From assembly GCA_015522635.1 (NCBI GenBank), contig WALW01000019.1, positions 1-64,000 on the forward strand: a stretch of 64,000 nucleotides of DNA, read 5' to 3'. The notes under the pieces were generated by a model. The model worked only from the letters and a program-made list of their open reading frames with translations. It was not told where the DNA came from and searched no databases. This DNA is from Candidatus Tiamatella incendiivivens. GTDB taxonomy: Archaea; Thermoproteota; Thermoprotei_A; Sulfolobales; Acidilobaceae. Of the stretch, positions 53,405 to 56,263 are shown one piece after another. The position numbers and the translations under genes are program-made. Numbering within the stretch: the stretch's first letter is position 1; the number at the start of each line of letters is the position of its first letter.

Positions 53405-53450
53405 CCTTATTTTTCTAATCATACAATCATATTAATTGCGGGTGATTTTT

Positions 53451-54086
53451 TTGAGCTTACTCGAAGAAATCCGTGAATGGCTTGAGAAAGGCGTAGAAGA
53501 AGCCCAAGATATCTCTGAGATATCATGGGATGTAGGAGAAATAAAGGATCCAAAGATAAAAGGCCTCATTGCTGTTAACCCGAAACTTCCTGTAAAGCTT
53601 TATATAACCGATAACGAGGAATTTAACACGATAAGAATCACTGTTCCGACAGGTGTATTAACAGCCGATCTCCCCCCAGGGGATAAACTCAAAATCTATA
53701 GAGCCCTGCTTGTACTTAACAAAACCCCCCTAGCCAAGATATACATTGATGGTATCAATGGAGAAGTAGTTGTTGCATCCGATCTAAGCACTAAGACACT
53801 AGGAGAGGATGAGTTCCATGACTCCATAAGCTTCACAATAAGTACAGTTATATCACTCTATAATAGATTCGGGCTTCCGAAGGACGTTAGAGTTGAGATG
53901 CTTGAGAATCTAGTATGGCTTATTCAGAGAAGGCTGCAGAAAGGATGGAGTAGGGAGAAACTCGAAGAATTCCTCGTTAATAAAGTTGGTATGGGTAAAC
54001 CGGAAGCTGAGCATCTACTTGAGACAATATTTCCGACCAAGAAAAAAGAAAAGAAACCCGGTGTTTCCGAACAAATGTACATGTAA
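53451..54086 (+). CDS. Hypothetical protein
   Basis: This protein has about 211 residues, beginning MSLLEEIREWLEKGVEEA. The first half is beta-rich (PVKLYITDNEEFNTIRITVP), the second half helical, with a C-terminal helical bundle (RRLQKGWSREKLEEFLVNK) and a lysine-rich tail. TTG 53451 follows GCGGGTGA. There is no membrane span or catalytic motif. I do not recognise the family; it looks like a conserved archaeal soluble protein. Confidence 0.75.
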   Translation: MSLLEEIREWLEKGVEEAQDISEISWDVGEIKDPKIKGLIAVNPKLPVKLYITDNEEFNTIRITVPTGVLTADLPPGDKLKIYRALLVLNKTPLAKIYIDGINGEVVVASDLSTKTLGEDEFHDSISFTISTVISLYNRFGLPKDVRVEMLENLVWLIQRRLQKGWSREKLEEFLVNKVGMGKPEAEHLLETIFPTKKKEKKPGVSEQMYM

Positions 54087-54154
54087 TATTCATATTACAT
54101 CCCATCTTTTTTAGAGATGATCTCCATAAATAGACTCTTAGGAGTTGTTAGTGA

Positions 54155-55759
54155 TTGAAATCAAGGAAAATAGGGTTCCCAGAGGCCTTCGCTATAGGAG
54201 TCGGTGGAATGATAGGTGGTGGCATCTTTGCAGTTTTAGGATTAAGTATATCAATTAGCAAATATGGCGCGCCAATCGCATTTATGGTTGCGGGACTCGT
54301 GGCTATAGCAACAGGGTACAGCTACGCCAAACTGTCAGTTAGATATCCCAGCAGAGGAGGAACTATAGAATTCGTTGTGAAAGGCTTTGGATCTGGGGTT
54401 TTTTCCGGAGGCCTAAACATCCTATTATATCTAAGCTATACAGTCATGATAGCATTATACAGCTTCGCCTTCGGACACTACGCTGCTGCAGCTTTCAACG
54501 CTGGTTACCCGTGGCCTCAGATCTTTTCAGTAATTGTCATACTAGCATTCACATCAGTAAATGCACTCGGCGCATATGTCAGCGGAAAAGTTGAGGATTT
54601 ACTCGTATATATAAAACTGAGTATACTCCTCATAGTAGCTGGAGTAGGATTCCTATACGTAAACTATTCAAAGCTCTCTCCAGGTAACTGGCCTTCTAAC
54701 ATTAATATAATAGCCGGCGGAATGTTAATCTTCGTTGCATACGAAGGCTTCGAACTCATCGCAAATGCCTCACAAGACGTTTATGACCATAGAATTATTC
54801 CTAAAGCACTGTATTCATCCATTATCGTTACAACACTAATTTACATTGGAATAGCGATAGTCTCAGTTGGCGTTCTTCCATTAAGCGAAGTTATAAAAGC
54901 AAAAGACTATGCTCTTGCAATAGTAGCCAAACCCGTCCTCGGATCTGCTGGATTCTGGTTAGTTATAATAGGTGCGCTTCTATCCACTGCAAGCGCTATA
55001 AACGCTACTTTATATGGCACAGCTGGCATAACATACCTTATCTCAAAAATAGGATACCTTCCATCCGAACTAGAGAAAACATTATGGAAAAATGCGTCGG
55101 AAGGGCTGTTCTTCATTGCCATTATGTCGATAATACTCGCCGTTTATGCGCCACTCCAAACAATATCAGTAATTGGAAGCCTAGGCTTCCTTACAGTATT
55201 CACGAGTGTAAATATAACTGCATATCGCCTTAGGAAGGAGGCGAAGGCCAACCCATATATTGGCTTAGTAGCGATATTATTATCATCATTCTCACTGGGC
55301 GTACTAATATATAACCAAGCCCGTAGTAGTCTAGGTTCACTTCTCCTATTCCTAGGAGTGTTAAGCGGTGGTTTCCTATACGAATATTTATATAGAAATG
55401 TGACCGGTCGCAGAATACATGAATACGTTGATGAAAACCTAGAAAAAAGAATTAAGCTAATTGATGAATGGAGAATATGGGTGCCCCCATTCATTTCCGA
55501 GCTCAAGAAACTAACCGGTGAAGCTAAATTTTACCTGATCGGTAGTATAGCCAGGGGGGAGAAAGCTATATCCCATGATATTGATATACTTGTTGTAATG
55601 GAGAAGAAGCCTAGTGAGAAGAAGCAAAGGATCCTAGTAAACAACGCAATAAACAACGCCGGTCTCACATCTCTTCATCCCATTCATATTCACTTCGCTT
55701 CAAAAGAAGAGGAAGAAGAATACAAGTCTCGAAGCAAGAAGTATCGTAAGCTAGATTAA
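54155..55759 (+). CDS. APC-family amino-acid permease fused to a nucleotidyltransferase domain
   Basis: Residues about 1-415 form an APC-type permease with around twelve hydrophobic spans and the family motif GVGGMIGGGIFAVLG in the first span. The C-terminal cytoplasmic part (about 430-534) contains YLIGSIARGEKAISHDIDILV, split here as GSIARGEKAISH and DIDILV. That is an exact G-S-x10-D-x-D nucleotidyltransferase motif of the minimal MNT type, with a following KKPSEKKQRILVNNAINN helix. One continuous frame links the two. The transferase half may modify the transporter or sense nucleotides; this is inference. TTG 54155 lacks a strong GGTG site. It overlaps the opposing nuclease gene by 9 bases. 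Confidence 0.88.
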   Translation: MKSRKIGFPEAFAIGVGGMIGGGIFAVLGLSISISKYGAPIAFMVAGLVAIATGYSYAKLSVRYPSRGGTIEFVVKGFGSGVFSGGLNILLYLSYTVMIALYSFAFGHYAAAAFNAGYPWPQIFSVIVILAFTSVNALGAYVSGKVEDLLVYIKLSILLIVAGVGFLYVNYSKLSPGNWPSNINIIAGGMLIFVAYEGFELIANASQDVYDHRIIPKALYSSIIVTTLIYIGIAIVSVGVLPLSEVIKAKDYALAIVAKPVLGSAGFWLVIIGALLSTASAINATLYGTAGITYLISKIGYLPSELEKTLWKNASEGLFFIAIMSIILAVYAPLQTISVIGSLGFLTVFTSVNITAYRLRKEAKANPYIGLVAILLSSFSLGVLIYNQARSSLGSLLLFLGVLSGGFLYEYLYRNVTGRRIHEYVDENLEKRIKLIDEWRIWVPPFISELKKLTGEAKFYLIGSIARGEKAISHDIDILVVMEKKPSEKKQRILVNNAINNAGLTSLHPIHIHFASKEEEEEYKSRSKKYRKLD

Positions 55760-56263
55760 GTCATATTTGACCCATCTAACCTTACACTCTTCGATCAGTT
55801 TCCTGACTTCTTTTTCTCTAGACGAGAGCTTAGCGTTTTTACCCGCTTTAACCTCTACAAATAAAATCTCTCTCGGTTTCCCGTCATATAATCCTTTGAA
55901 AATAATATAATCAATAGGGCTGCCAATGAACCTCGCATCCTTAGGGTTTATACCCGTTTTAACGGCAAATTCTAGTGGTGCGAGTTGCTCAGCCACTTTA
56001 CCCAGAACAACAGCGCTACTTTTCTCTACTGCATCCTTTCTTATCTTATTCTCCTCCATCTTTTTCCAAGAATCAAAAGCCAATCTATACTTCTCCTCTA
56101 GGATAATTCCAAGCTTAGACGCTTCGCTTTTTAGCTCCTTAGTCTTCCATTCCTCCAGAAGCTTCCTGTACTTTTCCTCCAGCGACAATTCTCTCTTTCT
56201 GATTCTAATATTCATAGTCAGTCTGTCATAGACGAGCAAAGCTACTAATAAAACTGTAATCAC
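55751..56263 (-). CDS. Membrane-anchored endonuclease related to archaeal Holliday junction resolvase (COG4741)
   Basis: This 170-residue protein has a short N-terminal hydrophobic anchor (about 2-12) and a basic, charged coiled-coil-like stretch to about residue 75. The C-terminal nuclease domain has the PD-(D/E)xK-type pattern GSPIDYIIF ... EILFVEVKAG ... REKEVRKLIEE. The group has been described as a predicted secreted or anchored nuclease; the substrate is not established. It converges on the permease-transferase gene with a 9-base overlap. Confidence 0.8.
   Translation of the reverse strand: MITVLLVALLVYDRLTMNIRIRKRELSLEEKYRKLLEEWKTKELKSEASKLGIILEEKYRLAFDSWKKMEENKIRKDAVEKSSAVVLGKVAEQLAPLEFAVKTGINPKDARFIGSPIDYIIFKGLYDGKPREILFVEVKAGKNAKLSSREKEVRKLIEECKVRWVKYDLI

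Follow-up and report, generated by a model that had tools for sequence, protein, structure and literature searches.

An archaeal ApcT-like permease fused to an MNT-type nucleotidyltransferase domain

Why would an amino-acid permease carry a nucleotidyltransferase (NTase) domain at its C-terminus? The question is raised by one open reading frame in a 64,000-nucleotide stretch of DNA from Candidatus Tiamatella incendiivivens, referred to here as the window. The first-pass annotation, made from the letters alone, had described this frame as a permease joined to an MNT-type domain with an exact GS-x10-DxD motif. Profiles, relatives and structure bear out the fusion, and the motif is present exactly as claimed (G463-S464-x10-D475-I-D477). 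We therefore considered what the two halves are, where the fused domain came from and what it may do to transport.

An uninterrupted frame with two recognizable halves

The frame comprises 534 codons without an internal stop (Table 1), and AlphaFold2 models the full-length protein confidently (pLDDT 87, pTM 0.87). The AGGAG upstream of its TTG start has weak support as a ribosome-binding site, a similar pattern occurring in a relative at near chance frequency. Directly 5' of the gene lies a 216-aa ORF (53436-54086) with no above-cut-off match in Pfam or NCBIfam; the sister genome (L031) keeps this ORF and its neighbors. On the opposite strand, a convergent gene for a PF10107 Holliday-junction-resolvase-like endonuclease (55751-56263, -) overlaps the 3' end of the fused gene by a few bases. 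No RNA elements were found near the fused gene at Rfam gathering scores.

Table 1 Positions of the fused gene and its parts within the window
Feature	Position	Strand	Remarks
Fused gene: ApcT-like APC permease + MNT-type nucleotidyltransferase	54155..55759	+	534 aa, TTG start
Shine-Dalgarno-like AGGAG	54140..54144	+	10 nt 5' of TTG; read from sequence
APC permease domain, residues 6-403, 12 TM LeuT fold	54170..55363	+	PF13520, ApcT match
Junction, residues 410-432	55382..55450	+	Sequence comparison, fused vs permease-only
MNT-type nucleotidyltransferase domain, residues 447-529, presumed cytosolic	55493..55741	+	PF01909, AlphaFold2 + Foldseek
GS-x10-DxD active-site motif (G463, S464, D475, D477)	55541..55585	+	Conserved in archaeal fused copies
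HPIHIH strand, residues 508-513	55676..55693	+	511 = presumed third metal ligand

The N-terminal half is a member of the APC family (PF13520, ApcT-like) by its profile, its LeuT-type fold and its TM5 lysine. AA_permease_2 (PF13520) matches residues 6-403 with 118 bits (cut-off 27), the profile match to ApcT MJ0609 (3gi9) reaches 380 bits over residues 2-425, and Foldseek returns ApcT 3GI9 as the closest solved structure (E 9e-23, TMt 0.88). K154 in TM5, a lysine in 40 of 40 fused proteins, aligns with K158 of ApcT, the proton-coupling lysine of that transporter (PMC12764776). The fused protein thus has the APC fold and the proton-coupling lysine in common with ApcT (MJ0609; 3GI9, 3GI8), a Na-independent amino-acid transporter, and by this analogy we predict it to be a proton-coupled amino-acid transporter as well. 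The two differ at the C-terminus, where ApcT stops after TM12 and lacks the NTase. Since homology to ApcT places the region after TM12 in the cytosol, the fused C-terminus is expected there. They also differ in TM6, where ApcT has YMGFG and the fused clade has YEGFE (E197, E200). The latter motif is common to the nearest permease-only relatives (from Rhodococcus and the archaeal genome G512) and absent from the other ApcT-like proteins compared; as a pointer to the substrate, the two glutamates are suggestive only.

For the C-terminal half, the domain search that had been proposed at the outset places NTP_transf_2 (PF01909) above its cut-off of 21 at residues 447-529, with 36.2 bits in the full-length protein and 40.6 bits for the domain alone; PF18765 Polbeta exceeds its cut-off for the isolated domain only (28.2 versus 26.9). 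An AlphaFold2 model of the domain alone (pLDDT 89, pTM 0.79) retrieves 1YLQ in Foldseek (E 5e-5), followed by 2RFF, MntA and pol beta. The motif falls inside this NTase fold, so that the refuting case named at the outset, a motif outside such a fold, does not apply. The PF01909 profile, the pol-beta fold and the hG[GS] and DxD elements together identify a minimal nucleotidyltransferase, whereas the MntA equivalog model NF047752 scores 15-18 bits, below its 60-bit threshold. Nucleotidyltransferase folds were reportedly classified by Kuchta et al. in 2009.

The first-pass annotation had allowed for a sequencing error joining two adjacent genes near 55430 and had asked for the fusion in relatives. 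Among 197 genomes sampled from the same order, 36 encode a full-length fusion in an uninterrupted frame, with identities of 46-80% across 500+ residues; among 398 genomes sampled across the phylum, every full-length fusion fell within that one order. The same junction is intact in named, independently assembled records (L031-L035). Named archaeal carriers are Candidatus Tiamatella (assigned to the Acidilobaceae by NCBI taxonomy), a Desulfurococcales MAG and an Acidilobaceae MAG; the bacterial ones are Thermodesulfatator autotrophicus and a Deltaproteobacteria MAG. Against this unbroken junction we found no point in support of a sequencing or assembly artefact, which is refuted and can be discounted. 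One candidate for a second fusion, in genome G007 (L119, 99 extra residues), was rejected; its tail contains no recognizable NTase and looks like read-through of a GC-rich frame.

Conservation of the active site and descent from HEPN/MNT modules

Mean column identity in the alignment of the NTase domain is only ~33%, and G463, D475, D477 and H513 are invariant in 38 of 38 archaeal fused copies. Position 511 is variable: it is His in 23 of the 38, the window's copy included, and Asp in the remaining 15. Asp and His have replaced one another about six times on the tree, with at least three of these switches forced by well-supported branches. In 21 free-standing relatives the same position holds Glu (15), Asp (3), Gln (2) or His (1), and it aligns with the Glu of the third core strand of 1YLQ. 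From this strand position, residue 511 is presumed to be the third metal ligand, equivalent to D71 of MntA (PMC7641770). The window's protein, with H511, does not show the canonical three-carboxylate arrangement (h[DE]h), and because most copies have His here, full two-metal binding is uncertain. Among class II MNT proteins of the same order (L093-L112), a His two residues past the third acid is nearly invariant.

Both bacterial copies have lost GS, DxD, the ligand at 511 and H513, and their domain profile match is still strong. As the domain persists in them after loss of the active site, not every copy needs to bind a nucleotide. This retention of a fold stripped of all motif residues, together with the faster evolution of the NTase part compared with the permease, would suit a structural remnant that merely stabilizes the permease or caps it for oligomerization. 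Fixation of G463, D475, D477 and H513 across the archaeal copies is unexpected for a scaffold, however, and we regard this explanation as quite improbable. Estimates of dN/dS for the NTase part are about 0.04-0.32 where estimable, several pairs being saturated; by this measure it is under purifying selection, usually weaker than that on the permease.

Where did the domain come from? The fused copies form one clade in the permease trees (99; 99/97), and a separate tree built from the NTase domain parts them from the free-standing copies (100/98). As both domains group the fused copies, their history is most simply explained by one fusion event within one archaeal order. Within this archaeal clade fall the two bacterial copies (L034:5001-6626, Thermodesulfatator; L035:90-1700, Deltaproteobacteria MAG), an arrangement that indicates transfer from archaea, after which the active site was lost.

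A PF05168 HEPN gene accounts for 18 of the 20 genes adjoining the nearest free-standing NTases of the same order, and these relatives therefore form the MNT side of class II HEPN/MNT pairs. Descent of the fused domain from HEPN/MNT modules had not been seen in the first-pass annotation. Such pairs are numerous in the order (L093-L112), with up to 23 PF05168 matches per genome (G056). At the fusion itself, the MNT component of a type VII toxin-antitoxin pair is present with its GS-x10-DxD motif and the adjacent HEPN is not: in a scan of 25 loci (23 fused; L090 and L091 permease-only), no HEPN gene was found by profile beside the fusion in the window or in the fetched fused loci. Searches with working controls, covering the families PF05168 and PF01934, likewise found no HEPN in the window's genome, the sister genome or four further fused genomes. 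Given fused loci and six genomes in which no HEPN was found, the domain has, on this comparison, left the HEPN partnership, and its partner now seems to be the permease instead of HEPN.

The same searches bear on whether the domain could be a tethered antitoxin that neutralizes a HEPN toxin in trans, keeping the HEPN/MNT function at the membrane. The nearest free-standing relatives do pair with HEPN, and 22 of 28 fused genomes encode a PF05168 HEPN somewhere. With neither HEPN family found in those six genomes or at the fused loci, this account is largely refuted for the window's genome and very improbable overall, and a HEPN toxin was rejected as the domain's target there. The earlier interpretation is supported in part: the frame is fused, its second half is of MNT type, and that half folds as an NTase, but its activity as a transferase on proteins is a possibility only. 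A HEPN-antitoxin role is unlikely. Membership in a known defense system was rejected, the comparison giving weak matches only, to the candidate NTase models PDC-S09/M05A/M63A.

How the domain may act on the permease

These observations led us to propose that the domain is a domesticated MNT module acting as a cytosolic, in-cis, Mg-NTP-binding regulator of a proton-coupled amino-acid permease, a proposal to which we give about an even chance. In this scheme, the permease would have taken HEPN's place as MNT partner and the GS/DxD pocket would bind Mg-NTP. Nucleotide occupancy or turnover, possibly including AMPylation of the permease itself, would then set transport activity, so that transport could be tuned to the energy or nucleotide state of the cell. 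The signal could pass through the conserved D426-L429-R432 segment that joins TM12 to the domain. D426 and L429 occur in 40 of 40 fused proteins and R432 in 39 of 40, and all three are rare in permease-only relatives, with which the fused proteins have E410 in common; this pattern is what a coupling element between TM12 and the NTase would show.

Genomic context was considered as well. No conserved neighbor genes were found at the fused loci beyond the closest relatives, which makes the permease, in cis, the simplest target; for the same reason operon context was dropped as a clue to substrate. Universal stress protein (Usp) genes adjoin the nearest permease-only relatives. The nearest archaeal one, in G512 (same phylum, other class), has four Pfam-confirmed Usp genes nearby, and the relative on a Rhodococcus plasmid has two annotated Usp genes adjoining it. 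In G512 (L090:7374-11347), three of the four lie 5' of the permease and the fourth is next to another APC permease in the same neighborhood. Nucleotide binding is common among Usp proteins. Their adjacency fits a regulatory role, but as Usp genes are common it is modest evidence.

Does the domain bind nucleotides, or does it also catalyze? Catalysis (AMPylation) is possible, being compatible with the retained GS-x10-DxD, but is made less certain by the Asp/His switching at position 511. Regulation through nucleotide binding seems at least as likely as catalysis, because 23 of the 38 archaeal copies have His at 511 and the bacterial active sites are lost. An active membrane-tethered AMPylase could move AMP, or another NMP, to a soluble partner (perhaps an enzyme that metabolizes the amino acid taken up) or to the permease and so link uptake to the state of an enzyme, on the model of GlnE/GlnD-type NTases. 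AMPylation by MntA requires the GS-x10-DxD motif (PMC7641770) that the archaeal copies keep exactly, the third Asp is present in 15 of 38, and MNT-derived protein-modifying regulators are known (PMC3710099). The histidine that replaces the third carboxylate in most copies, the inactive motifs of the bacterial ones, the lack of a conserved neighbor gene as target and the lack of a detected HEPN in the window's genome all speak against it, and we consider such an enzyme possible, though on the unlikely side. The narrower idea that the MNT domain, its third catalytic Asp replaced by His in many members, AMPylates or otherwise nucleotidylates its own permease in cis and so switches uptake off or on appears unlikely.

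Known systems and what the fusion may mean

The proposed regulator resembles several characterized systems in part. Class II HEPN/MNT modules (PF05168/PF01909) of archaea share the GS-x10-DxD motif and a P-x-x-x-H strand with the fused NTase, but their third acid is usually Glu, whereas the fused domain has Asp or His, is joined to a permease and is without a HEPN partner. MntA of the HepT/MntA pair (type VII; PMC7641770) is likewise a minimal NTase with GSX10DXD and a similar fold (6M6W, 7BXO); it AMPylates an adjacent RX4HXY HEPN, while the fused protein has none and carries His at the equivalent of D71. GlnE/GlnD-type enzymes are also NTases of the pol-beta superfamily and regulate metabolism through protein modification, yet they are soluble and larger, contain NTase-HEPN-like helical domains and have no transporter joined. 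KimA (8B70) is an APC-superfamily carrier that was solved with c-di-AMP and has a C-terminal cytosolic domain for nucleotide binding; it counts in favor of the proposed regulator. Its cytoplasmic domains have been compared to nucleotide-binding folds (PMC6994465), but the C-terminal one has a different fold and is not an NTase, and KimA carries potassium. Anantharaman et al. proposed that MNT/HEPN modules have been domesticated into protein-modifying regulators (PMC3710099); when the paper was searched for these terms, neither permeases nor transporters turned up. Our search of the open-access literature, with subscription papers outside its scope, found no report of a permease-NTase fusion.

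Hyperthermophilic archaea are rich in class II HEPN/MNT modules, of which, according to a paper from 2020, its authors were aware of no biochemical work (PMC7641770). The fusion permanently joins an MNT domain of this lineage to a known type of client, a transporter with measurable activity, and therefore makes a role of the lineage directly testable. If in-cis nucleotidylation were true, the protein would be a transporter controlled by covalent modification from its own NTase. More broadly, the fusion suggests that, in this group of heat-loving archaea, the uptake of a nutrient is now controlled by what was once part of a toxin-antitoxin pair. We found no other PF13520 permease in the window's genome, which is one of 19 fused genomes, out of 28 examined, where the search for PF13520 yielded the fused protein alone; a principal route by which amino acids are taken up may thus be under the control of the NTase domain.
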